A DNA stretch of 46,874 nucleotides from an uncultured Prevotellaceae bacterium (GTDB lineage: Bacteria; Bacteroidota; Bacteroidia; Bacteroidales; Bacteroidaceae), in assembly GCA_900318795.1 (NCBI GenBank), contig ONLU01000016.1:1-46874 (forward strand), given 5' to 3'. Each line of letters starts with the position of its first letter. Position 1 is the stretch's first letter. Positions 10,800 to 28,070 of the stretch are shown one piece after another. The position numbers were made by a program, and so were the translations under genes. The notes beneath the pieces are model-generated. The model ran no database searches, was not told where the DNA came from, and saw only the letters and a program-made list of their open reading frames with translations.

Positions 10800-11846
10800 T
10801 CAAGGTTTTTGCGGTTCCACCTTCATCAAGAGGATTCCAATCAGAATCCAAATGATTTCGCGGAATCGGCAGATGATGCTGACAAAGATGCCAAGGGCAG
10901 CAGAGAGTCCCAACGCGGCAATAGACAGCACGAAGCCACCCTCTTGTACCCCCAACTGCATGGGCAGGAAGCCGATGAGGTTGGCGAAAAGCGTGGTGAA
11001 AGCAACAATCAGGATGCTGTGCAGATAGGTAATCATTATGCCCGAGAAGCCTCCACCATTGTCAATGCCGAACAGCAAAAGCATAAACAACACCTCAGAA
11101 CTCTGAACCACACGAGAGAAGAACTCCAGAAAGAGGCTGCTGTAGAAAGCCTGTTTGTCCTGACCATGCAATGAAGCAATCTGCATATCAATATTATGCA
11201 TTGCCTCTGCGTGCCGTTCAGAGAAACGCGTACTCCATCCTTTCAGTCCAGGAATCTTACCTATCCAGCGGATGGTCTTCACCACGAGTCCCTTGCGATA
11301 GCCTCTTGAAAACAGATAGAAGGCAACAAGACAGAACACGATGATGATGCCCAGAATAGTACCGATGGCTGTAGTCATCGGCATATCTCCTACGGCCACC
11401 AGAGCCAGATAGATGAAGATGGAAACAAACCAAAAGATGAAGTGTCCGAAGAAATGCATCATAGCATACAGTATCACGCTGGAAGTGGCGTGCTGGTTGT
11501 CGATGTACTTCGACAGTTCCATGATGCGATAAGGCTCACCCCCCAAACCGCCTACAGGCGTCGCATAGTTTAGGGCATAGCCGCTGATAGTCAGTCTATA
11601 GATGGTTGCAAAGCTGACAGGCGGCACACCTCCTACATTTCCCTTGATGATACACCACCATGCCCAGGCATTGATACCATAGATCAGAATCCACACACCA
11701 ATGATGGGTATCAGCCAATAGCCTGCGTGGCACAGATGCTGCCACAGTTCGACAAAACTGACATCAAAGGTGAACAACATCACTACCACAGCAGCTACAC
11801 CGAGGAAGAAAAACAAGTTGTTGAGGCGTTGTTTAGTCCAGGTCAT
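10800..11846 (-). CDS. Flippase-like (LPG synthase TM / AglD family) membrane protein
   Basis: A 348-residue polytopic protein of the UPF0104 / lysylphosphatidylglycerol-synthase transmembrane family. It has eight or more hydrophobic segments and the family-typical YALNYATPVGGLGGEPYR and FLPMQLGVQEGGFVLS motifs. Members are annotated flippase-like and move or modify lipids in the cytoplasmic membrane; most lack proven substrates. It is the last gene of a four-gene minus-strand operon, 27 bp after the CDP-alcohol phosphotransferase gene. Context suggests it handles the lipid made by that enzyme. Confidence 0.82.
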   Translation of the reverse strand: MTWTKQRLNNLFFFLGVAAVVVMLFTFDVSFVELWQHLCHAGYWLIPIIGVWILIYGINAWAWWCIIKGNVGGVPPVSFATIYRLTISGYALNYATPVGGLGGEPYRIMELSKYIDNQHATSSVILYAMMHFFGHFIFWFVSIFIYLALVAVGDMPMTTAIGTILGIIIVFCLVAFYLFSRGYRKGLVVKTIRWIGKIPGLKGWSTRFSERHAEAMHNIDMQIASLHGQDKQAFYSSLFLEFFSRVVQSSEVLFMLLLFGIDNGGGFSGIMITYLHSILIVAFTTLFANLIGFLPMQLGVQEGGFVLSIAALGLSAALGIFVSIICRFREIIWILIGILLMKVEPQKP

Positions 11847-11873
11847 GAGAAGTGAAACGTGAGAGATTAGGGA

Positions 11874-12854
11874 TTAGAGGTTGGAGGCTATACGACGACA
11901 GAAAGTCTCATGGCGCTGATTGACATAGCAGGCCAGCAGACCCATGCCGAAAATCTCGAACACGAAGTAGCAGGCTGGTACGTCAAGCAGACACAACAGG
12001 AAGAGCCAAAAAGAACGGAAATTGAAGGTAAGCAGTCCGTTCCAGAAGATGACAGGACGCGAAGCCTTGAGGAATTCCTGACGCACGGAATCGGGTATTT
12101 GGTCAGAGCTACCATACTTCTGACGCATACGGGCCATCAGGTTCTGGAACGCAGGAGTGTCCTTCTCCTGATTCTTGGTATAGCCGATATACGACTTCTG
12201 GAAAGCACGTTCCACCCAAGGTGTCGAGGCATCCATCTGGTCGTAAATTTCCTGCTGACGACGAGAATTGTCGAGTTCGCTGCCTTTCTCGCCTTTCAGG
12301 AAGAACAGGTGTACCTGTATATAATAGTCAGCCAGCCGCTGCTGACCAGAGATACCCACGAAGCCCGATATGCAACTCAGCACCAGGACTACGCCAGTGG
12401 CAATGAGGACGTTCTGATAGGTGTCAGGAATGCCCAGCCACGAGAACTCGATAGTGTGATGCTGATAGAAGCGATAGACCATTCCCAGGTAGATGGGAAC
12501 GAACCATACGAAGCCTGCCGCCCCGTCGAGGATACGCCCCAGGGGGCTCTTCTTGCCTGTCAAACGGGCCAACTGGCCGTCGGTACAGTCAAGGATATCT
12601 GCCACCATCAGCATAAAGACGGCCACAAGATTCATGCCCAAGCCCCACCAGCCTGAATAGTAATAGCTGCCGGTGGCAAAGAAGACGGTGCTGGCAGCAC
12701 CGATAATCATCGACCAGATGGTAACGGTGTTGGGATGAATGTCGAACTTGGCAAAGGCCAGCGCGCAATAATAGCAGAAAGGACGGATGACATGGAGGTC
12801 AAGCCAGTCTTCAGTCTCTGACGACTTTAATGATGCTTTGAAATTCTGATCCAT
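11874..12854 (-). CDS. CDP-alcohol phosphatidyltransferase family protein with altered motif
   Basis: A 326-residue membrane enzyme of the CDP-alcohol phosphotransferase family, which joins an alcohol or lipid to a phospho-head group using a CDP-activated donor. The signature is D-x2-D-G-x2-A-R-x8-G-x3-D-x3-D. Here the run from about residue 88 (DCTDGQLAR, then GRILDGAAG) matches every position except the last Asp, which is Gly (codon GGC). That Asp is usually the catalytic base, so the chemistry may be altered or another residue may substitute. The protein is longer than typical members; a loop of about 100 residues follows the fourth membrane segment. The ATG directly abuts the stop of the upstream nucleotidyltransferase gene. 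Confidence 0.83.
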   Translation of the reverse strand: MDQNFKASLKSSETEDWLDLHVIRPFCYYCALAFAKFDIHPNTVTIWSMIIGAASTVFFATGSYYYSGWWGLGMNLVAVFMLMVADILDCTDGQLARLTGKKSPLGRILDGAAGFVWFVPIYLGMVYRFYQHHTIEFSWLGIPDTYQNVLIATGVVLVLSCISGFVGISGQQRLADYYIQVHLFFLKGEKGSELDNSRRQQEIYDQMDASTPWVERAFQKSYIGYTKNQEKDTPAFQNLMARMRQKYGSSDQIPDSVRQEFLKASRPVIFWNGLLTFNFRSFWLFLLCLLDVPACYFVFEIFGMGLLACYVNQRHETFCRRIASNL

Positions 12855-13583
12855 TTACAATAATTCTTTTGGCATGAGCTGCTGGGCACGCTCAAAGTCC
12901 TCAGGAGTGTCTAACTCATAGGAGAAATAGCTGGTGGTGTCAACCACACGGAAGGTATGACCCTGAGGTATCAGCCGTTCGAAGGCCCGCTCGTAGAAGA
13001 CATCTATCAACCCTTCCTGCTCTATCATCTGCTGAAGTTCGTGATAGATGGCTTCGCTGTAGTCGGCAGTCATTTTCTCAATGCCCACAGACTCGCCGAT
13101 GGCATCTTGAATACTGCACACCTTGCTAATCTCGGTGATGCGTCCGTCTGCATCGACAATGACCTTGATTTCCTCTTCGCCACACTCGTGACGGTTGAGT
13201 GCCAAAGCAGACTCTGGTTCTCGGGCAATACGCACTACGGCAGCCGGGTCGCACAGGATGTCGCTGTCCATCAGCAGGAACTCCTTGCCGCGCACCACCT
13301 GCATGGACAGCCACAGCGAGAAGATATTATTGTTGTGCTCATAGTCGGCATTGTGGATGAAGGTGATATCAAGCTGGGGAAAATGAGTTGTAAGAAAGTC
13401 ACGTATCATCTCACTCAGATAACCTGTTACCACTACGAACTGGCTGATTCCGGCCTGCTGCATAGCACATACGGTGCGTTCCAACAACGTGCGTCCGCCC
13501 ACCTGCAGCAAGCACTTGGGCTTGGTATCAGTCAATGGGCGCAGGCGCTTGGCCATACCTGCCGCTAAGATGACTCCAATCAT
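12855..13583 (-). CDS. NTP transferase, phosphocholine-cytidylyltransferase-like
   Basis: A 242-residue nucleotidyltransferase. It opens with the glycine-rich nucleotide-binding motif MIGVILAAGMAKRLRPLTD and the lysine motif TKPKCLLQVGGRTLLERT, followed by LMDSDILCDP, whose Asp probably binds metal. The closest remembered group is LicC-like phosphocholine or phosphoethanolamine cytidylyltransferases; sugar-1-phosphate nucleotidyltransferases are the alternative. It sits between a PLP enzyme and a CDP-alcohol phosphotransferase, so making a CDP-head-group donor is the most coherent reading. It starts 24 bp after the PLP enzyme and abuts the next gene. Confidence 0.82.
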   Translation of the reverse strand: MIGVILAAGMAKRLRPLTDTKPKCLLQVGGRTLLERTVCAMQQAGISQFVVVTGYLSEMIRDFLTTHFPQLDITFIHNADYEHNNNIFSLWLSMQVVRGKEFLLMDSDILCDPAAVVRIAREPESALALNRHECGEEEIKVIVDADGRITEISKVCSIQDAIGESVGIEKMTADYSEAIYHELQQMIEQEGLIDVFYERAFERLIPQGHTFRVVDTTSYFSYELDTPEDFERAQQLMPKELL

Positions 13584-13607
13584 ACAAATCTACAATTTGA
13601 CGATTAA

Positions 13608-14657
13608 CTATTTACCATTATAAACACGCAGGATGGTATCAACGACAGTCTGGGTCTGTTCCTTACGGCCCAGTGTGATACGCAGACAAGACTCCAGACC
13701 CTTGTCGCCCATGAACTTGATCTTGTAATCCTGAATCTTCAGGGCCTCCATCAGCCTGTCCTTGATTTCGACAGGATACTTGATAAGGATGAAATTGGCA
13801 ACAGACTTGTAAACCTTGAAGCCGGGCAGCGAGCCCAGTTCCTTCTTATACAACTGGCGTCCCCACTCCATGTCGTCGGCCACATGACGATAGTGCTCAT
13901 CGCTGTCGAGAGCAGCCAGCGCCACAGCCTCCGAGAAGCGGTTGTAGCCCAGATACTTGTTACAGTAGCTCAGGAACTGATCGTGTCCGGCACCGATAAA
14001 GCCGAAGCCACAACGAAGACCAGGCAGACCGTAGAACTTAGACAAGGTACGCGAAATAATCAGGTTGTTATACTTGTTAACCAACGGAGCGATATAGCCC
14101 GTATCCATATTCATGAAACTGGCATAGGCCTCATCTATCAGTACCATGGTATCGCTGGGGATATTCTCCATGATACGTCCAATCTCCTCGCTGCTCAGGC
14201 TATTACCCGTGGGGTTGTTGGGCGATGCCAACAGCAGCATGCGGGGGTGAACGCGGTTGGTGTACTCAATGACCTCGTCGACATCATAGGCGAAGGTATC
14301 CTCCAACTCATGCAGGGGATACATCTCGAAAGTACCGCCACACTCGCTGGCCACACGATTGTAGTACCACCACGAGAACTCTGGGATGAGAATCTTCTTG
14401 TTGTCACCCTTCATCAGGAAGTAGTGAATGGCATTCTTCAGCATGTCCTCGCCGCCATAGGTCAGCAAGACCTGTTCCTCAGGCACATTGTAGATTTCGC
14501 TCAAACGGACACTAATAACACTCTTTTTGCCCTGATCATAGATACGGGTATAGAAGCAGAGGTCCTTGGGATTGAAATTTTTTATCGCATCAACAACTTT
14601 CTGACTGGGTTCAAAATTAAACTCGTTTCTATCGAGATAATTCATCTGTTTTTCCAT
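13608..14657 (-). CDS. HisC/CobD-like PLP-dependent aminotransferase-fold enzyme
   Basis: A 349-residue fold-type I PLP enzyme. Conserved sites include SPNNPTG (Asn contacting PLP), VLIDEAYASF (Asp on the pyridine nitrogen) and the Schiff-base lysine in RTLSKFYGLPGLRCGFG. The family includes histidinol-phosphate aminotransferase (HisC) and threonine- or serine-phosphate decarboxylases (CobD-like). No other his gene is in the window, and the neighbours are head-group enzymes, so a decarboxylase or transaminase for a phospho-amino-alcohol is plausible. I chose the ATG at 14657, preceded by AAAGAAGAA; an upstream in-frame TTG lies inside the promoter -7 box. It is the first gene of the operon. 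Confidence 0.78.
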   Translation of the reverse strand: MEKQMNYLDRNEFNFEPSQKVVDAIKNFNPKDLCFYTRIYDQGKKSVISVRLSEIYNVPEEQVLLTYGGEDMLKNAIHYFLMKGDNKKILIPEFSWWYYNRVASECGGTFEMYPLHELEDTFAYDVDEVIEYTNRVHPRMLLLASPNNPTGNSLSSEEIGRIMENIPSDTMVLIDEAYASFMNMDTGYIAPLVNKYNNLIISRTLSKFYGLPGLRCGFGFIGAGHDQFLSYCNKYLGYNRFSEAVALAALDSDEHYRHVADDMEWGRQLYKKELGSLPGFKVYKSVANFILIKYPVEIKDRLMEALKIQDYKIKFMGDKGLESCLRITLGRKEQTQTVVDTILRVYNGK

Positions 14658-14687
14658 TTCTTCTTTAATTTTTGCAAAATTTGGGTG

Positions 14688-14719
14688 CAAAGGTACGAAG
14701 AAACGAGCGAAAAACCAAA
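14688..14719 (-). promoter_or_regulatory. Promoter of the lipid head-group cassette
   Basis: On the minus strand TTTG (14716-14719) and TACCTTTG (14688-14695) are exactly 20 bp apart, an ideal Bacteroidota promoter. All four downstream genes lack internal promoters of this quality. Confidence 0.82.
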
Positions 14720-14733
14720 TTAATTACCTTTTT

Positions 14734-15348
14734 TTATACATTTGTGACGATACCCTCGATGTATGTTTTCAGGATGTGGATACCTGTTTTATTCTCATGT
14801 CCCCAAGGGATGATGAGGTCTGCAAATTTCTTGGTGGGTTCTATGAATTGGTCATGCATAGGTTTGAGCACTTTCTCATAGCGGTCGAGCACCATGTCTA
14901 CCGTACGTCCACGCTCCACCACATCGCGCCGGATATTGCGTATGAGGCGGGTGTCGGCATCCGTATCCACGAATATTTTCAAGTCCATCATGTCACGAAG
15001 TTTCTTATAGTGTAGCGTCATGATGCCCTCTAGGATAATGACAGGTTTGGGCTCCACATGAATGGTTTCCGGCAGACGATTGGAGATGACATACGAGTAG
15101 GTCGGCTGTTCGACAGCCTGACCGTTCTTCAGCATCTTGATGTGCTCGGTCAGCAGTTTCCAGTCAAAGGCGTCAGGGTGGTCGAAATTGATAGCTTTAC
15201 GCTCTTCGTCCGTCATTCCCGTCGTATCGTTATAGTAGGAGTCCAGAGGTACTATGGCTGCACAATGCTTGGGCAGCACCTTGGTGATTTGCTTGACGAC
15301 GGTAGTCTTTCCTGAACCTGTTCCGCCGGCGATTCCGATAATAGTCAT
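14734..15348 (-). CDS. udk: Uridine kinase
   Basis: A 204-residue kinase that phosphorylates uridine and cytidine in pyrimidine salvage. The P-loop is GIAGGTGSGKTTV, followed by the substrate-binding VPLDSYYND, NFDHPDAFDW and the characteristic VILEGIMTLH. RDVVERGRTVDMVLDRYE is the lid region. The length is normal for bacterial udk. It lies 27 bp downstream of the secreted EEP-family nuclease gene, so the two are probably co-transcribed, which fits salvage of nucleosides released from nucleic acids. Confidence 0.93.
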   Translation of the reverse strand: MTIIGIAGGTGSGKTTVVKQITKVLPKHCAAIVPLDSYYNDTTGMTDEERKAINFDHPDAFDWKLLTEHIKMLKNGQAVEQPTYSYVISNRLPETIHVEPKPVIILEGIMTLHYKKLRDMMDLKIFVDTDADTRLIRNIRRDVVERGRTVDMVLDRYEKVLKPMHDQFIEPTKKFADLIIPWGHENKTGIHILKTYIEGIVTNV

Positions 15349-15375
15349 TTTCTTAAATTGCGTCTTATTGGGATG

Positions 15376-16419
15376 TCATTTTCTTTCTTTCATCAGATAG
15401 ATTACTGTAGGCAGGTGGTCACTATAGCCATCGAGCCACACGCCACCAGCATGTGTTCGCTTGATATTGCCTTTGTACTGTCCCTCCGTCTGGAACAAAT
15501 AGTCCCTGCGGAATATCTGATTTTGTCTGAATTTCAATGTATTATAGTCATTCTGGCCTTCCTGATGCAACAAATTGTAGTTCACGACAATCTGGTCGAA
15601 CAAGTTCCAGGCTCCATCATACATCAGCGTACCCGTTCCACTATCATGAACCTTCCACCAGGGATTGTAGAGTTCGCCGGGCTTCACATCCTTTATTTCG
15701 CGTTTGGCGCCCAGGCACACGGACATCGAACGGTCACGCGGATCGTCGTTCATATCGCCCATGATGATAATCTTCACCTGAGGGTCTTCTTTCTGCAGCG
15801 ATTCTTTCAGCGCCTTTACCTGCTTGCCTGCAAGCTCTCGGTAATAGGAAGTTGTTCCACGACTGGGCCAGTGGCAGACAATCACCGTCACATGTTCGCC
15901 AGCCAGCGTACCACTGACCGTAAGGAAGCCACGCGTTGCGTGTCCCTTGTCCTTTTCCAGGTCGTAGACATAAGGGACCAGTCGCACACTACGCACCTTG
16001 AAGAGTGCCGGATTATAGAGCAGACCGCAGTCCACACCTCGACGGTCAGGACCTTCCACATGACAGAACTTGAAGTTGCGCTTCTTCAGCTTCGGCTGTT
16101 CACAAAGATCCTGCAGACAATGCCTGTTCTCCACCTCACTGACGCCAATGACGGCACAACCGACATCAGGCAGGACGTCAGTACCCATTTCAGACAACAC
16201 GGTAGACATGTTGTGCAGCTTATGCTGATACTTCATTTCCGTCCACTTGTTCCGTCCGTCAGGCAGATATTCATAGTCGTTCTTGCCCTCATCGTGCTTG
16301 GTATCAAACAAGTTTTCCAAATTGTAGAAGCCTACTCCGTAGATGCTATAGCGCTGTGCCTGCAAGGGTGCGAGTCCCAATGCCAAAAGCATGATTAGTA
16401 ATGATAGTTTCTTTCGCAT
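15376..16419 (-). CDS. Secreted endonuclease/exonuclease/phosphatase (EEP) family protein
   Basis: A 347-residue protein with a signal peptide (MRKKLSLLIMLLALGLAPLQ, then AQ) and an EEP (DNase I-like) catalytic domain. Motifs in order are FYNLENLFD, GVSEVENRH (metal-binding Glu), VDCGLLYNP, VIVCHWPSR (catalytic His), IIIMGDMNDDP and the C-terminal SDH in GYSDHLPTV. The export signal and Asn/Asp/His set fit an extracytoplasmic nuclease, though phosphodiesterase or phosphatase substrates are possible. It is divergent from the TonB-dependent receptor operon and 27 bp upstream of udk. Confidence 0.88.
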   Translation of the reverse strand: MRKKLSLLIMLLALGLAPLQAQRYSIYGVGFYNLENLFDTKHDEGKNDYEYLPDGRNKWTEMKYQHKLHNMSTVLSEMGTDVLPDVGCAVIGVSEVENRHCLQDLCEQPKLKKRNFKFCHVEGPDRRGVDCGLLYNPALFKVRSVRLVPYVYDLEKDKGHATRGFLTVSGTLAGEHVTVIVCHWPSRGTTSYYRELAGKQVKALKESLQKEDPQVKIIIMGDMNDDPRDRSMSVCLGAKREIKDVKPGELYNPWWKVHDSGTGTLMYDGAWNLFDQIVVNYNLLHQEGQNDYNTLKFRQNQIFRRDYLFQTEGQYKGNIKRTHAGGVWLDGYSDHLPTVIYLMKERK

Positions 16420-16446
16420 TTTTGATTGGTTTTATGTTATTAACCG

Positions 16447-16454
16447 CAAAGATA
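16447..16454 (-). promoter_or_regulatory. -7 box TATCTTTG for EEP nuclease-udk
   Basis: The minus strand reads TATCTTTG, 27 nt before the ATG at 16419. No clear -33 element is present. Confidence 0.65.
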
Positions 16455-16548
16455 CGAATTATTTTTCTAAAAAAGAATATTTGGGAAGGAAATTTTATGC
16501 CGACTAAAAAAAATATATGTTTAAGCATTGCATCTCATTTTTTTTTCG

Positions 16549-16556
16549 TACCTTTG
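16549..16556 (+). promoter_or_regulatory. -7 box TACCTTTG for the TonB receptor operon
   Basis: TACCTTTG lies 31 bp before the ATG at 16588. ATTG at 16527-16530 could serve as a -33 element with 18-bp spacing. The divergent nuclease promoter is only about 95 bp away, so shared control is possible. Confidence 0.65.
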
Positions 16557-16587
16557 TGCCAAACTATAATATTAACACATCACAATT

Positions 16588-19407
16588 ATGCAAAAAAAGC
16601 TGAAACTCATTGTGATAGCCTTATGCTTCGCATCTTCGGCATTTGCCCAGTCGACAAACGGAACAGTGGTAGACAATCTGGGAGAACCGATTGTCGGCGC
16701 CATTGTGACCGTAGAAGGCAGCAACGTCTCTACGACTACCGACATCAACGGCAACTACCGCATTGCAGCTCCAAAAGGAGCCAAAGTGACCATCGCGTAT
16801 ATCGGCTATCAGCCACAGACCGTTAATCCGGGTGGCACCATCTACCTTCAGAAAGACGAGGCAGATGATGATGAACAACAAGAGACTTTGGACGAGCAAA
16901 CGTTCACATTCACTGAGAACCAGTTGGGTGAGGACGACGACATGTCGCAGAACGTGTCCATCATCTCGTCCAACCGGAACATTTATGCCTCACAGGTGGG
17001 ATATTTGTTCAGCCCAGTACGTTTCCGCTACCGTGCTTTCAATCAGAAGTACAACGAAATCTACATCAACGGCGCCCAGATGAACGACATGGAGAGCGGC
17101 CAGTTCCGCTATTCACTCGTGGGTGGTCTGAACCAGCAGACTCGTGGCGTAGAAAACGCACTTCCCTTCGAGGCCAACAACTTCTCGATGGCTGGTATGG
17201 GCGGCTCTAACAACTACGACTTTCGCCCCAGCCACATGGCTACGGGCAGCCGCATCACCCTCAGCGGTGCCAACCGCAACTATACGGTTCGCGGCATGTT
17301 TACACACAACACCGGTCTGATGTCCAACGGGTGGGCTTTCTCAGCCAACGTCACCTATCGTTGGGCGGGTATGGGTACCAGCTATGTGAAGGGAACGTTC
17401 TACAACTCGCTCTCCTACTTCTTTGGAGCCGAGAAGAAGCTGAACGACCGTCACTCGCTGAGCCTTGTCACTTGGGGCAATCCCACAGAACGTGCAGGAC
17501 AGGGTGCTGCCACAGACGAGAGCTACTGGCTAGCCAACGACTATTTCTACAACCCCTACTGGGGCTATCAGAACGGCAAGAAGCGCAACTCGCGCGTCAT
17601 CAGCGACTATGCGCCAACGGTGCTTCTGACGTGGGACTGGAACATCAACGACCGTTCCAAGTTGACTACTACGCTGACAGGACGCTACTCGATGTACAAG
17701 AGCACCAAGCTCAACTACAATAACAGCGAGAACCCACAGCCCGACTACTGGAAAAGCCTGCCGTCAAGCTACTATGACGTATGGTATCCTGAGGATGAAG
17801 CTGGCCGCACACTGTCAGGCTATGACGACTACTATCGTGCTCGCACCTACCTGATGGGCAGCGAGGAGGCACGCCAGATCAACTGGGACCGTTTGTACTA
17901 CGCCAACCAAATGGGCAACGCTTCAGGGCGCGATGCTATGTACTACGTTCAGGCCAGGAACAACAACAACCTGAACCTGACGCTGGCTTCGACGCTGAAG
18001 ACGGAGCTGAATAAGAATACCAACTGGAATGTGGGCCTGCAGCTGGCTACCAACAAGGGTATGCACTACCAGACGATGGAGGACCTGCTGGGCGCCAACA
18101 CGTTCCACAACATCAACACCTACGCGCTGGGCAACTATCCCTCGACGGACGTTCGCGTACAGTACGACCTGAACAATCCTAACGCCGTAGTGAAAGAGGG
18201 TGACCGCTTTGCCTATGACTACAACCTGCTGGTGCGCAAGGCACAGGCATGGACCTCGTTGCAATACAAGAAGAACTCGCTGGCAGCCTTCGTTGCAGGA
18301 CGCATCGGCGGTGTCACCATGCAGCGCGACGGCAAGATGCGCAATGGTGTGGCAGAAGCATTGGGTATGTCGTCCTACGGTAAAAGTGGTACGGCCAAGT
18401 TCCTAGAAGGTGGCGGCAAAGCCGGTCTGACCTATTATCTGGGCGCTGGCAACACCATCCAACTGGGTGCCGGCTACGAGCTGAAAGCTCCCCAGGCACA
18501 GGCTGCCTTCGTCTCTCCCGAGGTCTCCAACGATTTCGTACACAACCTGAAGAACGAGAAGGTGTTCAGTTCGGAAGTGGGCTATCAGTTTGAGACTTCC
18601 TGGATGAAGGCCAACATCAACGGCTACTACAGCACCATCAAGGACGCTTCCGAGTGGCAGTGCTTCTTCTACGACGACATTGCCTCGTTCTCGTATGTCT
18701 CTATGACGGGTATGAAGAAGGAGTACTACGGTCTGGAGTGGGGTCTGAACTTCAAGATCAACTCTGCCTTCAGCATCAAGACGCTGGGAACCATCAGCGA
18801 AGCCAAGAACACCAACAATGCCGACGTCGTTTACATGAACTCGACAGAGGGCAAGTACTACGGTGACATAGTATATAATAAGAACATGCGCGAAGCCGGC
18901 ACTCCGCTGTCAGCCTACAACCTGACGCTGAGCTACCACTCCAAGGGCTGGTACATCGACGTCATGGGCAACTACTACGACCGCATCTACCTCAGCTATT
19001 CTCCCTCTTACCGCTACGGTTCGACGCTGGAGAACCGCCAGAAGTCTTACTTGAACAGCGGTATCGCAGCCGAACAGGTGTTTACCACCAACGAGGCTGG
19101 CGACAAGGTACTGCTCTCTGACGCCATCGCTCAGGAGAAGGGCAAGGGCGGCTTCATGCTCGACCTTAGCATCGGCAAGAGCATCTGGCTGAAGAAGGGT
19201 TCGCTCAGCATCAACCTCACGCTGACCAACGTTCTCAACAACCGCAAGATGGTGACGGGAGGATACGAGCAGAGCCGCAGCAACTACTCGGTGAACTCCA
19301 CTACCGGCGAGGTAGGCAGCGCCCGCATCTACAAGTTCGACCGCAACCCGAAGAAATATTACGCTTACGGTATCAACGGTATGCTGAACATTGCTTATAA
19401 ATTCTAA
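16588..19407 (+). CDS. TonB-dependent receptor with carboxypeptidase-like regulatory domain
   Basis: A 939-residue outer-membrane transporter. The signal peptide ends at ASSAFAQ. Residues about 22-90 form a CarboxypepD-reg/CNA-B-like domain (NGTVVDNLGEPIVGA, TTDINGNYRI, IAYIGYQPQ) found in SusC-like and other Bacteroidota receptors. A diverged plug (IYINGAQMNDMESGQFRYSL) is followed by a beta-barrel of alternating aromatic strands ending with a terminal Phe (LNIAYKF). It lacks the strong SusC hallmarks and no SusD partner follows. Instead two OB-fold-like lipoproteins do, and secreted nucleases flank the operon. Import of nucleic-acid fragments is therefore an inference from context. The next gene starts 3 bp after its stop. 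Confidence 0.88.
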   Translation: MQKKLKLIVIALCFASSAFAQSTNGTVVDNLGEPIVGAIVTVEGSNVSTTTDINGNYRIAAPKGAKVTIAYIGYQPQTVNPGGTIYLQKDEADDDEQQETLDEQTFTFTENQLGEDDDMSQNVSIISSNRNIYASQVGYLFSPVRFRYRAFNQKYNEIYINGAQMNDMESGQFRYSLVGGLNQQTRGVENALPFEANNFSMAGMGGSNNYDFRPSHMATGSRITLSGANRNYTVRGMFTHNTGLMSNGWAFSANVTYRWAGMGTSYVKGTFYNSLSYFFGAEKKLNDRHSLSLVTWGNPTERAGQGAATDESYWLANDYFYNPYWGYQNGKKRNSRVISDYAPTVLLTWDWNINDRSKLTTTLTGRYSMYKSTKLNYNNSENPQPDYWKSLPSSYYDVWYPEDEAGRTLSGYDDYYRARTYLMGSEEARQINWDRLYYANQMGNASGRDAMYYVQARNNNNLNLTLASTLKTELNKNTNWNVGLQLATNKGMHYQTMEDLLGANTFHNINTYALGNYPSTDVRVQYDLNNPNAVVKEGDRFAYDYNLLVRKAQAWTSLQYKKNSLAAFVAGRIGGVTMQRDGKMRNGVAEALGMSSYGKSGTAKFLEGGGKAGLTYYLGAGNTIQLGAGYELKAPQAQAAFVSPEVSNDFVHNLKNEKVFSSEVGYQFETSWMKANINGYYSTIKDASEWQCFFYDDIASFSYVSMTGMKKEYYGLEWGLNFKINSAFSIKTLGTISEAKNTNNADVVYMNSTEGKYYGDIVYNKNMREAGTPLSAYNLTLSYHSKGWYIDVMGNYYDRIYLSYSPSYRYGSTLENRQKSYLNSGIAAEQVFTTNEAGDKVLLSDAIAQEKGKGGFMLDLSIGKSIWLKKGSLSINLTLTNVLNNRKMVTGGYEQSRSNYSVNSTTGEVGSARIYKFDRNPKKYYAYGINGMLNIAYKF

Positions 19408-19410
19408 AAC

Positions 19411-20697
19411 ATGCAGACGATTATGAAGACCAAGAAATATATTCTCTTCGCACTGGCAACCCTCGGACTTGCCACATCGTGTGAGAACTTAGAATGGAAT
19501 GCTCCTGACAACCCAGAAGTTGGAGTAGAGGCCTACGGCAACAAGTATATACAAGTCACCAACCTGAAGACCATTGCCGAGCTGAAGTCTCTCTACAGCA
19601 ACGAGATTAACAACAACACGCTGAAGCAGGTCAAGCAGCCCATGCAGATCAAGGGCATCATCACTGGTAACGACGAAGGTGGCAACATCTATAACTCGCT
19701 GTACCTTCAGGACAACACCGGTGCCATAGCCATCAGCATCGGACAGGGCGGGCTCTATGGTCCCTTTGCCATCGGACAGGCAGTACTCATCGAGCTGGAA
19801 GGACTCTATGTCGGCGGTTACGGCAAGCAACCCCAGATAGGTACCACGTACACCAATCCCAACAGGGAAGATGCCACGCCACAGGTGGGTCGCATGAGCC
19901 GCTACGAGTGGCAGAATCACTACCGCCTGCTGGCTAAGAGCGACGGACTTGCCGACGGGCTCTTTGTAGCCCCCATCGAGTGCAAGTGGAATCTGAACAA
20001 CTTGGACATTGCCAGGTATTGCGGCAGCCTCGTCACCCTGAAAGGTGTTGAGTTGAGCGAAGCCAATGGAACAGCAGTGTTCGCCCCCTCTGACGGCAGT
20101 GTCAGCCTGACAGCCAACTGTGCCAACCGCAACATCAACGGACTGAGCAATGTTGTGCTGCGCACCAGCACATACGCCAAGTTCGCCAACAAGGCTATGC
20201 CTACAGGCCGTGTGGACATCACGGGCGTAGCAACCCGCTATAACGACGTATGGCAGCTTCTGATGCGCACCGAGAGCGACATCGTGGCTTCGTCCACTGA
20301 ACCTGCACCCGTAGCAACGCCTCAGGGCAAGGGCACACTGGCCGATCCCTTCAACGTAGCAGCGGTCACTGCCTTCACCAAGGGACTCAATGCCGACGTC
20401 CAGTCATCAGAAGTTTACGCCAAGGGCTACATTGTCAAAGTGAGCGACATTGACACCTCTGGCACATACGGCAATGCTACTTATCTCATTTCCGACCAGA
20501 AGGACGGCTCAACAGGCAGTTTCCAGATCTACCGCGGCTACGGCTTGGGCAACGAGAAGTTTAACGCCAAGGGGGCTACCATCATCAAGGAGGGTGACGA
20601 AGTCATCGTCTACGGAAAGGTGGTCAACTACAAAGGTAACACTCCACAGTTCGCACAGGGCAGCTACATCACATCGCTGAACGGCAAGACAAAGTAA
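19411..20697 (+). CDS. DUF5689-type OB-fold-like surface lipoprotein
   Basis: A 428-residue lipoprotein with a signal peptide and lipobox (FALATLGLATSC). The acidic residues after the Cys (ENLEW) resemble surface-export signals. The first part, residues about 55-300, looks like the DUF5689 domain, with MQIKGIITGNDEGGNIYNSL and LYLQDNTGAIAISIG. The end (residues about 310-428) has the same OB-fold-like module that repeats in the next gene (GTLADPFNVAAVTAFTKGL and VYAKGYIVKVSDI). An in-frame ATG at 19423 gives a more typical lipoprotein start (MKTKKY). DUF5689 proteins are, to my knowledge, linked with secreted nucleases in Bacteroidota. It probably binds cargo for the TonB receptor. Confidence 0.75.
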   Translation: MQTIMKTKKYILFALATLGLATSCENLEWNAPDNPEVGVEAYGNKYIQVTNLKTIAELKSLYSNEINNNTLKQVKQPMQIKGIITGNDEGGNIYNSLYLQDNTGAIAISIGQGGLYGPFAIGQAVLIELEGLYVGGYGKQPQIGTTYTNPNREDATPQVGRMSRYEWQNHYRLLAKSDGLADGLFVAPIECKWNLNNLDIARYCGSLVTLKGVELSEANGTAVFAPSDGSVSLTANCANRNINGLSNVVLRTSTYAKFANKAMPTGRVDITGVATRYNDVWQLLMRTESDIVASSTEPAPVATPQGKGTLADPFNVAAVTAFTKGLNADVQSSEVYAKGYIVKVSDIDTSGTYGNATYLISDQKDGSTGSFQIYRGYGLGNEKFNAKGATIIKEGDEVIVYGKVVNYKGNTPQFAQGSYITSLNGKTK

Positions 20698-20733
20698 ACT
20701 CAATAACGAAACACGAATAAAAACAAAAATATT

Positions 20734-22803
20734 ATGAAAAGAATAGCAAATTATCTGATTGCGCTGGCCGTAGCGGCCTTCACATTCACCAGCTGCGCGG
20801 ACGTGCCCTCTCCCTTTGGGGACATCGTCAAGCCAGACTCAGGCGACGTTGTGGTCATCGAGCCCTCAGGAACAGGTACAGAGGCTGACCCCTACAACGT
20901 GGCAGGTGTGCTGGAGTACATCTCTGGTCTGGGTGCAGACACTCCTTCACCAAAGGAAGTCTACATCAAGGGCTATGCCGTCGAGCTGACCGACATCTCG
21001 GCCAGTTACGGCAATGCCACCTTTACCATTTCCGACAATGCCGAAGGCACTGCCAACAAGTTCACCGTCTATCGTGCTGCCGGCTTAGGCAACCAGAAGG
21101 TAACCGACGAAAGTTTCATCAAGCAGGGCGATATAGTTGTCATCTGTGGTAAGGTGACCAACTACAAGGGCAACACCCCCGAGACCGTCCAGGGCGCTGC
21201 CTACGTCTACTCCGTCAACGGCAAGAGCGGCGGTGGTGCTACTCCAGCCACAACGCTCGGTACCAAGGACGCTCCCCTCACTATTGCCCAGGCTCTTGAA
21301 ACCATCAACGCACTGGCTGACAATGGTACTACTGCACAGGATGCCTATGTTGCCGGTAAGATTACAAAGATCAAGACTGCAGATGCCGATATTGCCAAGT
21401 ACAAGAATATCGACTACATCATCTCCGACGGCACTAACGAGCTGACTGTCTTCCGCGGCAAGAACATTGACAATACAGACTTTACCGCAGCAGGACAAAT
21501 CAACGTGGGCGACGAGGTCGTTGTCATTGGCAAGCTGACCAAGTTTGTCAAAGACGGCAACACCACACCTGAGGTTGCCCAGGGCAACTACATTGTCAAG
21601 CTGACCAAGGGTTCAAGCGGCGGCGACAGCGGCCTTGGCACTAAAGACGCTCCACTCACTGTAGCAAAGGCACTGGAGATTATCAACGCACTGGCAGATG
21701 GTGGCGAGACTGCTGATGCATACGTCAAGGGAACCATCTCGCAGGTGACAAGCTACAACTCAAACTACAAGAGCATTACCTACTACATCTCTGACGACGG
21801 CAAGACAACAAACGAACTGCAGGTCTACAGCGGCAAGGGACTGAACGGCGCCGAATTCGCTGCAAAGGAAGATCTGTCCGTGGGTGACCAAGTAGTCATC
21901 AAGGGCAAACTGAAGAAGTATGTCAAGAATGGCAACGTAACACCAGAAATCAACCAGTCAAGCGAAATCGTCACTATTGTCAAGGCATCCGGTGGCGGCA
22001 ACGACCTCGGTACTAAGGACGCTCCCCTCACTGTAGTCAAGGCTTTGGAAATTATCAACGCACTGGCTGACGGTGGCGAGACTGCTGATGCATACGTCAA
22101 GGGAACCATCTCGCAGGTGACAAGCTACAACTCAACCTACAAGAGCATTACCTACTACATCTCTGACGACGGCAAGACAACAAACGAGCTGCAAGTTTAC
22201 AGCGGAAAAGGACAGAACGGTGCTGATTTCGCAGCAAAGGAAGACCTGTCCGTGGGTGACCAAGTTGTCATCAAGGGAAAACTGAAGAAGTATGTCAAGA
22301 ATGGCAAAGTAACACCAGAAATCAACCAGTCAAGCGAAATCGTAACCATCACCAAGGCTTCGGGCGGCGGCAACACGGGCGGTGGCGAAATCAAGGCTGC
22401 CTTTGGAGATCTGGATTGCAGTAACATTGCAGCAATCAAGCTGAGTGACGGAACAACCCTGTCCGTTTCACAGGAAGACGGAAAGTCTGCTCCCATCTAC
22501 CACGAGAGCACCAAGATTATCCGTATCTATGCTCGCAATGCCATCACCATCAATGCCGGAAGCAAGAAGATTGCCAAGGTCGTACTTGACTACGACACCT
22601 ATAACGGAACAGCTTATAAAGGCAACGACGAGATGTACGGCGAGGCTGGCAGCAACAAGATCACACCAACTAAGGACAGTGCCAGCGTTACGTTCTCTAA
22701 TGTCAACAACAGTTCTCTCAAAGTGGTCAACTGGTTAGAAAGCGGTAACTCCGGTGGAACCCAGTTCCGTATTACCGGCATCACCATTACCTACGCGAAC
22801 TAA
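20734..22803 (+). CDS. Lipoprotein with four OB-fold-like repeats
   Basis: A 689-residue lipoprotein (lipobox FTFTSCADVPSPFG). Four OB-fold-like (DUF6359-like) modules follow, starting near 20872, 21256, 21634 and 22006. Each opens with GT(K/E)xxPLTxAxALE-type sequence and contains a (V/A)YVKGxI strand and VGDQVVIKGKL. The third and fourth modules are almost identical, with about six substitutions in 120 residues, showing recent tandem duplication. A separate beta-rich domain of about 135 residues ends the protein (SIVTI linker, then FGDLDCSNIAAIKLSDG to FRITGITITYAN). OB folds often bind nucleic acid, so multivalent binding of extracellular DNA or RNA is a reasonable hypothesis. It is the third gene of the receptor operon. 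Confidence 0.78.
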   Translation: MKRIANYLIALAVAAFTFTSCADVPSPFGDIVKPDSGDVVVIEPSGTGTEADPYNVAGVLEYISGLGADTPSPKEVYIKGYAVELTDISASYGNATFTISDNAEGTANKFTVYRAAGLGNQKVTDESFIKQGDIVVICGKVTNYKGNTPETVQGAAYVYSVNGKSGGGATPATTLGTKDAPLTIAQALETINALADNGTTAQDAYVAGKITKIKTADADIAKYKNIDYIISDGTNELTVFRGKNIDNTDFTAAGQINVGDEVVVIGKLTKFVKDGNTTPEVAQGNYIVKLTKGSSGGDSGLGTKDAPLTVAKALEIINALADGGETADAYVKGTISQVTSYNSNYKSITYYISDDGKTTNELQVYSGKGLNGAEFAAKEDLSVGDQVVIKGKLKKYVKNGNVTPEINQSSEIVTIVKASGGGNDLGTKDAPLTVVKALEIINALADGGETADAYVKGTISQVTSYNSTYKSITYYISDDGKTTNELQVYSGKGQNGADFAAKEDLSVGDQVVIKGKLKKYVKNGKVTPEINQSSEIVTITKASGGGNTGGGEIKAAFGDLDCSNIAAIKLSDGTTLSVSQEDGKSAPIYHESTKIIRIYARNAITINAGSKKIAKVVLDYDTYNGTAYKGNDEMYGEAGSNKITPTKDSASVTFSNVNNSSLKVVNWLESGNSGGTQFRITGITITYAN
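21634..22377 (+). repeat. Two near-identical 372-bp tandem coding repeats
   Basis: Units 21634-22005 and 22006-22377 each encode one OB-like module of 124 codons. They differ mainly at synonymous sites and about six amino acids. Homologous recombination between them could add or delete a module without breaking the frame. The related module starting at 21256 is clearly older, with 126 codons and many substitutions. Confidence 0.9.
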
Positions 22804-22829
22804 TTCCCCCCACTCTATTTCCCTTATCG

Positions 22830-22867
22830 CAGGCGGCGGCCCTCAAGAGTTGCCGCCTGTGTTTTTT
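22830..22867 (+). terminator. Rho-independent terminator of the receptor operon
   Basis: An 8-bp GC-rich stem (CAGGCGGC / GCCGCCTG) is followed by TGTTTTTT. It lies 27 bp after the stop of the OB-repeat lipoprotein. Confidence 0.85.
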
Positions 22868-22943
22868 CCGACAGGTCTCATGAGGAACGCAGATGCCTTT
22901 CTCTGTATAGCGCCTGTCCACTGCAAAAATAATTCACGGAAAA

Positions 22944-22975
22944 TTTGGCTAATCCGAAAAAAAGTCGTACCTTTG
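22944..22975 (+). promoter_or_regulatory. Promoter of rpmE2
   Basis: TTTG (22944-22947) and TACCTTTG (22968-22975) are exactly 20 bp apart, an ideal Bacteroidota promoter, giving a leader of about 50 nt. Confidence 0.82.
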
Positions 22976-23027
22976 CAGCCGCTTTTATGCACAACGAACA
23001 AATAACAATTAATAATAACAAGCAAAA

Positions 23028-23282
23028 ATGAAAAAAGGTATTCATCCAGAAAACTATCGCCCCGTCGTGTTCAAGGACATGTCCAACGGCGATATGTTCC
23101 TTTCGCGTTCTACCGCAAAGACTAATGACACCGTAGAATTCGAAGGCGAAACTTACCCCGTGGTAAAGATTGAAATCTCGAGCACTTCTCACCCCTTCTA
23201 CACTGGTAAGAGCAAGCTCGTCGACACCGCTGGTCGTGTTGATAAGTTCATGAGCCGCTACGGTAAGGCTGCGAAGAAATAA
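23028..23282 (+). CDS. rpmE2: 50S ribosomal protein L31 type B
   Basis: An 84-residue protein with the type B L31 sequence pattern ([29 protein letters not shown] and [13 protein letters not shown]). The zinc-binding cysteines of type A L31 are absent, as expected for type B. It has its own consensus promoter and a hairpin after it, so it is transcribed alone despite sitting between nucleic-acid-locus genes. Confidence 0.95.
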
Positions 23283-23308
23283 ATAGATTTCACGCCAAAA
23301 AGACATTC

Positions 23309-23354
23309 AGGCGCGTTCTTAGGTAGTTGCATATGCCTATGACCGCGCCTTTAT
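23309..23354 (+). terminator. Probable terminator after rpmE2
   Basis: Nested hairpin: AGGCGCG (23309-23315) pairs with CGCGCCT (23344-23350), and TAGG pairs with CCTA inside it. TTTAT follows. The long loop lowers certainty. Confidence 0.55.
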
Positions 23355-23395
23355 CAGCTAAAAATCCCAACTGCAACAACACTAAAACGCAACGA

Positions 23396-24319
23396 ATGAA
23401 GACTATACCCCAAATGATTCTCAGTTTCACCTTACTGGCCCTTGTTGCCTGTGGCGGTGACGGCGACGACATCATCGTCGAGCGCAATACACAGAAGCCT
23501 AGTGCCACCGTCGTCAACAACAACCGCAACACGACCGGCCCGAAAGCAGCACAGACGAGATACGAGTTTCCCAAGCTTAAGGAAGGCTACAGCGAGGTCA
23601 TTGTGCACGAATGTACACTCAACAACAAGACCGGCGAAGCGGGTGTCAACTACAGCCTGGAGTGGGACCACCACCGACGCGCTACGCGCTGGGTATGCTA
23701 TCAGATCTATGCCAGCATAAGCCAGTCGAACTACAGCCGTCCAGCCGAAGACCCCTGGGCTTACGACCCCAAAGTGCCGGAAGACGAGCAGCAGGCCACT
23801 TACAACGAGCTGAGCAAGAGCTACTTCCCCTCGACAGGCAGTTTCTACGAGAAAGGGCACATCGTCGCCTCGGCCGACCGTCTCTGCACTCGCGAAGCCA
23901 ACTACCAGACGTTCTACATGACGAACATCTACCCAATGGTACACAACTTCAACGGCGGCATATGGGCCACCATGGAGAAGCGCGTCCGTATATGGGGCGG
24001 TCAAGCAGACACTCTTTACGTCTGCAAAGGTGGCACCATTGACAAGGCCGACGGCATCCTTAACTACACGAAGGGTAACCATATTGTGCCCAAATACTTC
24101 TACATGGCCGTGCTGAGCAAGAAGGGAAGCCAATGGGAAGCGATGGCTTTTTGGATTGAGCACCAGGATGTAACCTCATGGAAAGCCCTGCAGGAATATG
24201 CCATCAGCATTGACGCGCTGGAGTCGAAAACCGGGCTCGACTTTTTCTGCAACTTGCCCGACGACATAGAGAACAAAGTAGAAAGCACACTCACGCTCAG
24301 CTATTGGAATCTAAAATAA
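23396..24319 (+). CDS. NUC1-family DNA/RNA non-specific endonuclease lipoprotein
   Basis: A 307-residue lipoprotein (lipobox LALVAC followed by GGDGDD). Its NUC1-type nuclease domain contains SFYEKGHIVASADR, where Glu-Lys-Gly-His replaces the usual Asp-Arg-Gly-His; the catalytic His is kept. The metal-binding region MTNIYPMVHNFNGGIW and a following ME(K)RVRIWG match the family. Family enzymes cut DNA and RNA without sequence preference. I chose the ATG at 23396, which gives a canonical lipoprotein signal; an upstream in-frame start lies in the rpmE2 terminator. No strong promoter was seen, so read-through from rpmE2 is possible. With the EEP enzyme it makes two secreted nucleases flanking the receptor operon. 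Confidence 0.87.
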   Translation: MKTIPQMILSFTLLALVACGGDGDDIIVERNTQKPSATVVNNNRNTTGPKAAQTRYEFPKLKEGYSEVIVHECTLNNKTGEAGVNYSLEWDHHRRATRWVCYQIYASISQSNYSRPAEDPWAYDPKVPEDEQQATYNELSKSYFPSTGSFYEKGHIVASADRLCTREANYQTFYMTNIYPMVHNFNGGIWATMEKRVRIWGGQADTLYVCKGGTIDKADGILNYTKGNHIVPKYFYMAVLSKKGSQWEAMAFWIEHQDVTSWKALQEYAISIDALESKTGLDFFCNLPDDIENKVESTLTLSYWNLK

Positions 24320-26173: not shown

Positions 26174-26330
26174 ATACATTTATTATGGAAGTGAGTTCAG
26201 TTACCGATAATTAAGGTTTAAAATGCGTGAATTTAGCGTTTTTTCAACCACAAATCACGATTTTTAAACTAAAATCGGCCTAAAAAGCGTTTTTTCCTTC
26301 AAAAAATATCGCAAATTGGAATAAATTATG

Positions 26331-26338
26331 TACATTTG
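26331..26338 (+). promoter_or_regulatory. -7 box TACATTTG directly before the hybrid regulator
   Basis: TACATTTG is separated from the ATG at 26343 by four bases, so the transcript would start at or within a base or two of the start codon. An in-frame ATG at 26328 lies inside the promoter and is not a valid start. Confidence 0.65.
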
Positions 26339-26342
26339 CAGC

Positions 26343-28070
26343 ATGAGTTTAATATTCGAGAACTATAAAATTTTGCTATTGATAGGCTTTGTCAGCCTAC
26401 TTCTCATCATGATTCCTATAGGACGATGGCTCTATTTGCGCAGTGTACGTCTGCGCAACCGACTACATATGAGCTATCTTTTCACGAATATCACCCATGA
26501 GCTCCTCACTCCGCTAACCATTCTGGCAGCCTCGACCGAACAGTTGCGCATCACCCACCCCGAGGGAAAGCAAGAACTGGACCTGATGGAGTTGAACATT
26601 AACCGCATCATGCGCCTGCTACAGCAGATACTGGAAACCAGCAAGTCGCAGGAAGGAGGGTTGAAACTGCTGGTCAGCTATGGCGACGTGATGAACTACA
26701 TCACCGAGACCGCCCGTTGCACGGAACCGCTGATGCGTCGCAAGAACCTGACATTCACCATCAACTGCAAGCCAGAGAGCATGATGGGCTGGATAGATAC
26801 GGACAAATTAGACAAAATCATCTTCAACCTGCTGTCCAATGCAGCCAAATACACCCCCGAAGGAGGGCAGGTCACCCTCGACGTAGCCACCAACCGCTAT
26901 TACAATCATGTCACCATCAGAGTCAGCGACAACGGCATTGGCTTCGCAAAGGACAAGATGAAACATCTCTTCTCACGCTTCTACGACGGCGACTACCGCC
27001 GTAGCCAGACTTTCGGCACAGGACTGGGGCTGGCGCTGACCCGCGACCTGGTGTATCTGCACAAAGGCACCATAGACTGCAAGAGCATAGAAGGCCAGGG
27101 AACCACTTTCACCATAGACCTACCCATCAGCAAGGAAGCTTTCGCGCCCTCGCAGATTGACGAAAAGAACAACATACAAGTCAAGGTACCTTCCGGCAAC
27201 ATCCTCGACCTGCCCTACAACGCTCCCAAGGAGCTGTCTGACGAAGGCCAGTACCCCAGGCTTGACAATGATGCGCGCACGGTGCTGATAGTAGAAGACA
27301 ACCAAGAGCTCATGATGCTGATGCGCCAGCTGCTCCGCACTAAATATCATGTGCTGACGGCCAGCAACGGCGTAGAAGCCCTGGACGTCATCCGCGAAAA
27401 CGACCTCGACATCATAGTCTCAGACGTGATGATGCCCCAGATGGACGGCTATGAACTGACCCGTCGCATCAAGCAAGACGAGGACATGAGCCACCTGCCC
27501 ATCATTCTGCTGACCGCCAAGATCCAGAACGAAGACCAGCAGGAAGCGCTCACGGCAGGTGCCGACGACTACATCACCAAACCGTTCAGCATCAAGAACC
27601 TGACACTCCACATTGACAACATTGTAGAGAACCGTGAGCGTATTCGCCGCGTCACGCAGACAGCAGAGGCTCCGGAGGAAGAGCCTGTTCCCCGCCCGAT
27701 GTCGCTCGACGACGTATTCCTGAAGAAAGCCATAGAGTGTATCAACGCCCATCTTGACGACTCCGACTACGACCGCGACACCTTTGCCGCGGACATGGGA
27801 GCCAGCGCCAGCACCCTGTACAACAAGCTGCGCGCCCTGACGGGCATGAACGTCTCTTCCTTCATCCGCGACATACGCCTGAAGGCCGCCTGCCGCATGG
27901 CCAAAGAGAACCCCGAGCTGCGCGTCAGCGACATTGCCTACCGCGTAGGATTCAAAGATCCCAAATACTTTGCCACCTCGTTCAAGAAAGAGATGGGCAT
28001 TCAACCGAAAGAGTATTTTGAGCAGCTTAGAGCTGACGACGGTGCGTCAGCCACAAGCCCGAAAAAGTAA
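26343..28070 (+). CDS. Sensor-less hybrid histidine kinase / response regulator / AraC regulator
   Basis: A 575-residue hybrid two-component protein. One membrane helix (residues about 10-32) is followed directly by a HisKA domain with His52 in FTNITHELLTPL. The ATPase domain follows (NLLSNAAKYTPEGG, VSDNGIGF, GTGLGLAL). A receiver domain has Asp in DIIVSDVMMPQMDGYE and Lys in YITKPF, and a C-terminal AraC helix-turn-helix includes VSDIAYRVGFKDPKYFATSF. Bacteroidales hybrid regulators usually carry a 600-700-residue periplasmic Reg_prop sensor; this one has none, so its signal is unknown and may be membrane or partner derived. The last 44 bp overlap the end of the convergent symporter gene. 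Confidence 0.88.
   Translation: MSLIFENYKILLLIGFVSLLLIMIPIGRWLYLRSVRLRNRLHMSYLFTNITHELLTPLTILAASTEQLRITHPEGKQELDLMELNINRIMRLLQQILETSKSQEGGLKLLVSYGDVMNYITETARCTEPLMRRKNLTFTINCKPESMMGWIDTDKLDKIIFNLLSNAAKYTPEGGQVTLDVATNRYYNHVTIRVSDNGIGFAKDKMKHLFSRFYDGDYRRSQTFGTGLGLALTRDLVYLHKGTIDCKSIEGQGTTFTIDLPISKEAFAPSQIDEKNNIQVKVPSGNILDLPYNAPKELSDEGQYPRLDNDARTVLIVEDNQELMMLMRQLLRTKYHVLTASNGVEALDVIRENDLDIIVSDVMMPQMDGYELTRRIKQDEDMSHLPIILLTAKIQNEDQQEALTAGADDYITKPFSIKNLTLHIDNIVENRERIRRVTQTAEAPEEEPVPRPMSLDDVFLKKAIECINAHLDDSDYDRDTFAADMGASASTLYNKLRALTGMNVSSFIRDIRLKAACRMAKENPELRVSDIAYRVGFKDPKYFATSFKKEMGIQPKEYFEQLRADDGASATSPKK

Follow-up and report, generated by a model that had tools for sequence, protein, structure and literature searches.

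Why would a bacterium place secreted nucleases beside an outer-membrane transporter and lipoproteins built from OB folds? The question is raised by positions 14734..24319 of a stretch of 46,874 nt from an uncultured Prevotellaceae bacterium (the window). In this locus, a gene for a nuclease of the EEP family and the uridine kinase gene udk lie divergent from genes encoding an outer-membrane protein (OMP), a DUF5689 lipoprotein and a lipoprotein with four OB modules; rpmE2 and a second nuclease gene, here called NUC, follow downstream. An earlier note, made from the sequence alone, had viewed the locus as a nutrient-scavenging system ending in udk. Gene content and operon layout, together with the predicted folds, the conservation of the genes and the clade membership of OMP and EEP with those of Riemerella anatipestifer, lead us to propose instead that the locus is probably an outer-membrane import complex for nucleic acid, most likely DNA. 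DNA import is placed first and feeding second because the only tested members serve natural transformation; a nutritional use of nucleic acid is possible as a secondary function.

Gene families, predicted folds and layout

Each gene that the earlier note had named was recovered in place, with the family assigned to it (Pfam and equivalog-type models). The unit is real and, by its family content (two nuclease families and OB lipoproteins), directed at nucleic acid. The EEP nuclease (15376-16419, minus strand), which belongs to a clade that we call type I, matches PF19580 (4e-94; 315.7 bits against a cut-off of 27). Its N-terminus resembles a signal peptide (MRKKLSLLIMLLALGLAPLQAQ), and the motifs F.N.EN, GD.ND and SDH are intact, with residues invariant across 15 sequences. 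Against NF033681 it scores 20 bits (cut-off 300). An HWPSR motif was dropped as an EEP hallmark, being present in only 98/128. The second gene of the EEP-udk unit, udk (14734-15348, minus strand), matches PF00485 (2e-48) and a uridine kinase equivalog. NUC (about 23396-24319, plus strand), a NUC1-type lipoprotein placed 3′ of rpmE2 as described before, matches the DNA/RNA non-specific endonuclease family Endonuclease_NS (PF01223, 4e-42; 144.8 bits against a cut-off of 23) and carries CGGDGDD at and after its lipobox cysteine. A [DE][RKP]GH motif considered for NUC matched only 14 of 75 open reading frames (ORFs), fragments included, many of the others reading [YF].[HR]GH, and it was set aside as a catalytic test.

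The OMP (16588-19407, plus strand; 939 amino acids) had been called a TonB receptor. Pfam gives only an N-terminal domain, CarboxypepD_reg (1e-11), and neither a plug (Plug) nor a barrel (TonB_dep_Rec) match, so this label does not follow from family models. It is favoured by the AlphaFold model (mean predicted local distance difference test score, pLDDT, 82.5), for which Foldseek returns TonB-dependent transporters, with PqqU best (1e-23), then Fiu, FhuA and BtuB. The OMP is thus predicted to have the plug and barrel of this transporter fold. A sequence search of solved structures gave partial matches for the OMP and no relative of the DUF5689 protein or of EEP.

In the DUF5689 lipoprotein (19411-20697, plus strand, with a likely start at 19423; PF18942, 4e-65), the lipobox cysteine is residue 24 of the longer reading, which starts at 19411. 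The C-terminus has a weak OB match (PF01336, 1e-4) below the cut-off, and residues 290-427 are 49% identical to part of the four-OB lipoprotein, so a further OB module is placed there. The best PDB matches of the protein's model (pLDDT 91; Foldseek) are nucleic-acid binders with OB folds (a HIN domain with double-stranded DNA, 5e-7; BRCA2-DSS1; CST), along with the OB domain found in lysyl-tRNA synthetase. Because whole-chain TM-scores are low, we describe the lipoprotein as having predicted OB folds rather than as the same protein as any of these matches. The four-OB lipoprotein (20734-22803, plus strand; 689 amino acids) has four stretches matching PF01336/PF13742 (4e-17), the number of modules that the earlier note had given, and a C-terminal stretch with no family match. 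Its last two modules form a tandem duplication (300 nt, 90% identical, 372-bp spacing). This seems to be a recent tandem copy, and a surface repeat-length polymorphism. The length of OB lipoproteins also seems to vary widely among relatives (ORFs of 130-859 amino acids, some perhaps cut).

The earlier comparison with Sus systems, OB proteins taking the part of SusD, proved apt. Plain SusC/SusD membership fails, with 63 bits against the SusC model TIGR04056 (cut-off 368) and no SusD family match in Pfam. The locus and SusC/SusD systems share a TonB-dependent-transporter fold with a CarboxypepD_reg extension, an adjoining lipoprotein and secreted hydrolases; the locus differs in having OB folds and nucleases rather than glycan binders and glycosidases. 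Extracellular nucleases of the ExeM/NucH, Xds and YhcR types combine an EEP nuclease domain with OB-type domains, whereas in this locus different proteins carry the two kinds of domain, next to an outer-membrane transporter. The DUF5689 model also matches in Bacillus subtilis, presumably in YhcR. Among the matches listed in the open-licence PMC literature, one paper mentions DUF5689, and the nuclease-linked unit is named nowhere.

Coordinates and strands agree with the divergent arrangement described before. The motif TANNTTTG, which we take to be the Bacteroidota -7 consensus, has 41 matches in the window against a shuffle mean of 20.2. Copies lie 5′ of EEP (16447, minus strand), OMP (16549, plus), rpmE2 (22968, plus) and gpx (24355, plus), and also 5′ of the next minus-strand gene (14688, minus), while a motif scan of the window gave no plus-strand copy from the OMP start to where the OB lipoprotein ends. 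A gap of 27 bp separates EEP from udk, and a single -7 box lies 5′ of EEP (TATCTTTG, 16447-16454, minus strand), a pattern that fits their proposed co-transcription. The OMP operon has the element TACCTTTG (16549-16556, plus strand), with gaps of 3 bp between OMP and DUF5689 (15 bp if the latter starts at 19423) and 36 bp before the OB lipoprotein. A terminator-like hairpin 3′ of this operon (22828-22861, plus strand; a 13-pair stem and a T tract) has the longest stem of its class in the window; the class itself, with 7 members against a shuffle mean of 9.5, is no commoner than in shuffled sequence. Judged by where the -7 boxes and the hairpin lie, the genes seem to form two divergent units, EEP-udk and OMP-DUF5689-OB. 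Since rpmE2 (23028-23282, plus strand; a type B L31 family match) has its own -7 box at 22968, NUC would lie outside the OMP operon and, if it belongs to any unit, would go with rpmE2. We rejected rpmE2 itself as part of the unit, as a translation gene with its own promoter-like box, and regard it as a bystander. About 2 kb 3′ of NUC, the plus strand encodes a hybrid sensor kinase-response regulator-AraC protein (26328-28070).

Conservation of the unit

To assess linkage we examined 149 regions and dropped 7 without an OMP above 500 bits and 24 with the OMP at most 4 kb from an end, which left 118 usable regions. One set of regions (set A) had been chosen on DUF5689, and 103 regions remain without it; sets may contain one species twice, and the 80 named loci are the best 80 of a longer list. 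DUF5689 is the next same-strand gene after OMP in 118/118 regions, and in 103/103 when set A is left aside. (L099, one of the regions that were dropped, has a gene other than DUF5689 after OMP.) EEP lies within 8 kb of OMP in 107 of the 118, in many regions divergent from OMP-DUF5689, and a NUC relative lies within this distance in 65, but in none of the 19 regions of one family, labelled f4. The earlier note had named a lack of joint conservation as an argument against its proposal; EEP, OMP and DUF5689 are conserved together, and in the Bacteroidales NUC largely is too. For udk the outcome was different. It is near the unit in 37/118 regions, all of them in two Prevotella-like sets (57 and 13 regions), and was therefore rejected as a core part. 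Most of the closest named relatives among the matches listed are Prevotella and Prevotellaceae from rumen, gut and mouth, and we therefore describe the source as Prevotella-like.

The order of the genes varies among relatives. In four Bacteroides-like genomes (L031, L032, L210 and L211), NUC, EEP, OMP and DUF5689 form one run in which NUC adjoins EEP; in L205-L207 the order is NUC-x-OMP-DUF5689-EEP. The OMPs of the four genomes group with family f58 (support 100), and so do the EEPs of the operon (99), while the second EEP of L032 and L210 groups with Bacteroides-like and Prevotella EEPs. Because OMP and the operon EEP share this affinity and the second EEP does not, the simplest explanation is a joint transfer of NUC-EEP-OMP-DUF5689. 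In three f4 genomes, ORFs that look Cas9-like by eye lie close to EEP, OMP and DUF5689, possibly by chance (L101:13690-17877, L102:12894-17090, L097:16495-19932).

Across the phylum, DUF5689 was found in 134 of 296 sampled genomes, a count that includes weak matches in other contexts. An OMP profile detects 126/201 genomes of the window's own family at 1e-30, and 233/392 genomes of the order at 1e-60 with both score classes mixed. Among the Porphyromonadaceae it detects 34/38 at 1e-60 (30 of these above 550 bits), and in f4 146/148 at 1e-30, including 140/140 good genomes, although in three of the latter (G514, G525 and G581) the match is weak or partial. Type I EEP is present in 7/7 genomes with OMP and 5/17 without (Fisher p 0.005), but since these genomes were picked by hand and are not a sample, we set this co-occurrence aside as support. 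In five Bacteroides-like genomes without OMP, udk was not found within the 1.5-kb flanks of type I EEP.

Natural transformation and the case for DNA import

The function of the OMP-DUF5689 pair has been probed genetically in R. anatipestifer. According to the available part of one study, RA0C_RS04915 and RA0C_RS04920 of strain ATCC 11845 are each essential for natural transformation, and after markerless deletion of either, transformants were absent down to a detection limit of 4e-10, against 5e-5 for the wild type (PMC8459023). To relate these genes to the window, we used G543, a genome presumed to be R. anatipestifer. It has, in a row, recA, a dinB-like gene, sdhB-, sdhA- and sdhC-like genes, comEC, a gene for 145 amino acids, a carboxyltransferase gene, EEP, OMP and DUF5689 (recA and the carboxyltransferase called by Pfam; the dinB-like and sdh-like genes by eye). 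This order fits the locus tags in the available part of PMC8459023 in steps of five (RS04870 recA, 04895 comEC, 04915, 04920), as do the Pfam domains, with DUF5017 below its cut-off. Some 40-50 kb downstream come dprA (Pfam) and, recognised by eye, a ComF-like gene, at about the places of tags 05130 and 05105 and with a spacing in the ORF list that is one gene short of the tags; an HhH protein at 528-529 kb fits tag 02645. A motif scan of G543 for RecA, DprA and ComF had found nothing; recA and dprA were later found by Pfam models. We therefore presume, because gene order matches the locus tags, that the EEP is RS04910, and likewise that the OMP and DUF5689 genes are RS04915 and RS04920.

Window and Riemerella proteins are related: the OMPs are 26% identical over 992 columns (2e-84), the EEPs 31% (3e-52) and the DUF5689 proteins 29% (6e-25). 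An OMP tree (FastTree, 68 rows, 15 loci left out beforehand, with a long-branch warning on the outgroup) unites the two OMPs in one clade (support 100), apart from a paralog that we call omp2, and the two EEPs likewise fall in one clade. The Riemerella pair thus has the same OMP clade, the same DUF5689 family, the same order and the same divergent EEP as the window. There are also differences. The DUF5689 protein ends in an OB module in the window and in DUF5017, below its cut-off, in Riemerella; as an f4 locus (L095) is also without DUF5017, this C-terminal domain is probably not defining for the pair. The window has in addition a four-OB lipoprotein, a NUC1-type nuclease nearby and udk after EEP, and comEC, which is in the same neighbourhood in Riemerella, is on another contig in the window's genome. 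RS04915 homologs were reported in Flavobacteriaceae only (PMC8459023, available part). As judged by our sequence comparisons, this OMP clade is found widely in the Bacteroidales too.

The omp2 sister clade of outer-membrane receptors is separated from the OMP clade with support of 100 and comprises L256:8894-11509 (from the Porphyromonas gingivalis-like genome G1025), L257, L258, L212, L213 and L262-L264. It often adjoins a lipoprotein-like gene; in L212, omp2 is followed by a DUF5017 protein and a NUC-type nuclease, and in L261 it neighbours EEP. These genes may form a second, related uptake system.

In the mechanism that we infer for the window, the EEP nuclease and the NUC1-type lipoprotein would cut or trim extracellular DNA at the cell surface. 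The DUF5689 lipoprotein, aided in Prevotella by the four-OB lipoprotein, would keep the polymer in place above the pore, in the manner of SusD with glycans, and the barrel of the predicted transporter would pass it into the periplasm with energy from TonB. An HhH (ComEA-like) protein and the inner-membrane ComEC would take one strand to the cytosol; DprA and RecA would then allow recombination, and degraded material could feed salvage through udk. Since ComEC, DprA and a protein with three HhH are encoded in the window's genome, the inner steps would be available there. In Riemerella, transformation is reduced in both tonBA and tonBB mutants, and for tonBA iron does not account for the loss, iron uptake being kept (PMC8383284, available part); this fits TonB-driven import but is not specific to this receptor. 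A tonBA effect is not known outside Riemerella.

In other Gram-negative bacteria, the step proposed here for the unit, passage of DNA through the outer membrane before it reaches ComEA/ComEC, is the work of a type IV pilus and secretin. Pfam found no pilus or secretin families among the unit's proteins, the only part of the genome searched for them. A bolder version of our proposal is that a TonB-energised, Sus-like DNA importer with OB lipoproteins and two surface nucleases replaces this route across much of the Bacteroidota, that EEP processes the incoming duplex, and that gut and rumen Prevotella transform by it. We put this forward tentatively, with rather more doubt than belief.

Several observations weigh against DNA import. 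Flavobacterium johnsoniae carries the genes and was not transformable under the conditions tried, and the presumed EEP tag, RS04910, is not in the mutant tables (both according to the available part of PMC8459023). Among 18 genomes, only G543 has comEC close to the unit, at about 4 kb; the distance is about 12 kb in its congener G494, and in the others comEC is distant or on another contig, so we gave this adjacency little weight as general support. P. gingivalis is highly transformable and needs ComEA and ComEC (PMC11532111, available part). G1025, the genome presumed to be P. gingivalis, has no DUF5689, only the omp2 paralog (with no partner lipoprotein or nuclease seen beside it) and only type II EEP. 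We had considered this species as support, and it went the other way: because it is transformable and, if G1025 is indeed this species, lacks the pair, OMP-DUF5689 is not the general DNA route in the phylum. At the level of the proteins, OB and TonB-dependent-transporter folds are generic, and the whole-chain TM-score between the DUF5689 model and its best OB match is 0.17. Neither lipoprotein gives a sign of a basic DNA grip, since the DUF5689 protein has no net charge (38+/38-) and the four-OB one is acidic (isoelectric point 5.1), which is mildly against nucleic-acid binding. Finally, full-strength OMP matches (above 590 bits) occur in 101/201 genomes of the window's family, many of them incomplete, a patchiness like that of a niche nutrient trait.

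This patchiness would suit scavenging alone, in which DNA or RNA is cut outside the cell, oligonucleotides are imported and nucleosides are salvaged by udk, with no gene transfer in Prevotella. The two nucleases beside a transporter, the EEP-udk unit in Prevotella, the non-transformable F. johnsoniae and the type I EEP kept in some of the hand-picked genomes without OMP are all in line with such a function. However, the linkage to udk is restricted to the Prevotella-like sets, the proteins of the unit have no Pfam match to a nucleoside transporter, phosphatase or nucleotidase, and the unit is near-universal in f4, including genomes of about 2 Mb. Given also that the sole tested members, the Riemerella core genes, are essential for transformation (PMC8459023, available part), scavenging was given up as the leading explanation, and we consider it unlikely, though the strongest of the alternatives.

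Less probable again, and in our view improbable, is that the unit acts on extracellular DNA to some other end (biofilm matrix, escape from DNA traps or defence), or that transformation in Riemerella is lost indirectly, through a change in the envelope, and the transporter really carries something other than nucleic acid. The ligands of OB folds include oligosaccharides and proteins as well, and the neutral to acidic lipoproteins would be compatible with this. Mutants in other envelope genes of the Riemerella screen, such as that for apolipoprotein N-acyltransferase, transformed less too, but their transformation was only lowered, whereas deletion of either core gene abolished it, by more than five orders of magnitude (PMC8459023, available part). 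Two separate nuclease families beside the pair, with EEP linked in 107/118 usable regions, likewise speak against this alternative. That unrelated genes merely adjoin in this contig is very improbable: in most regions udk lies well away from the unit, a separate promoter-like box precedes rpmE2 and NUC is missing near the unit in f4, but for the OMP-DUF5689-EEP core chance is refuted by the 118/118 and 107/118 linkage across several families of the class, together with the joint transfer suggested by the trees.

Significance and neighbouring genes

DNA import by the Bacteroidota poses a specific problem. In P. gingivalis, import into the periplasm "remains unclear" according to the available part of a 2024 study, with no type II or type IV secretion system identified and a type IV pilus-like pilus not involved (PMC11532111). 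The locus offers a concrete and widely conserved candidate set for this step in the phylum, comprising a transporter, OB lipoproteins and two nucleases. A pair whose OMP was reported from Flavobacteriaceae only is now extended to the Bacteroidales, with P. gingivalis as a specific exception. If DNA import holds for Prevotella, natural transformation could plausibly serve gene flow in commensals of the gut, mouth and rumen, and would provide a genetic tool for them.

Two other parts of the window are of separate interest. On the minus strand at 10800-14690, genes for an aminotransferase, an NTP transferase, a CDP-alcohol phosphatidyltransferase and an LPG-synthase-TM protein lie in a row; these families suggest an operon that makes the head group of an unusual phospholipid or phosphonolipid. 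In the left part of the contig, the plus strand encodes a VapE-like/BT4734-like protein (3282-5420); VapE-like proteins are often found in mobile elements.

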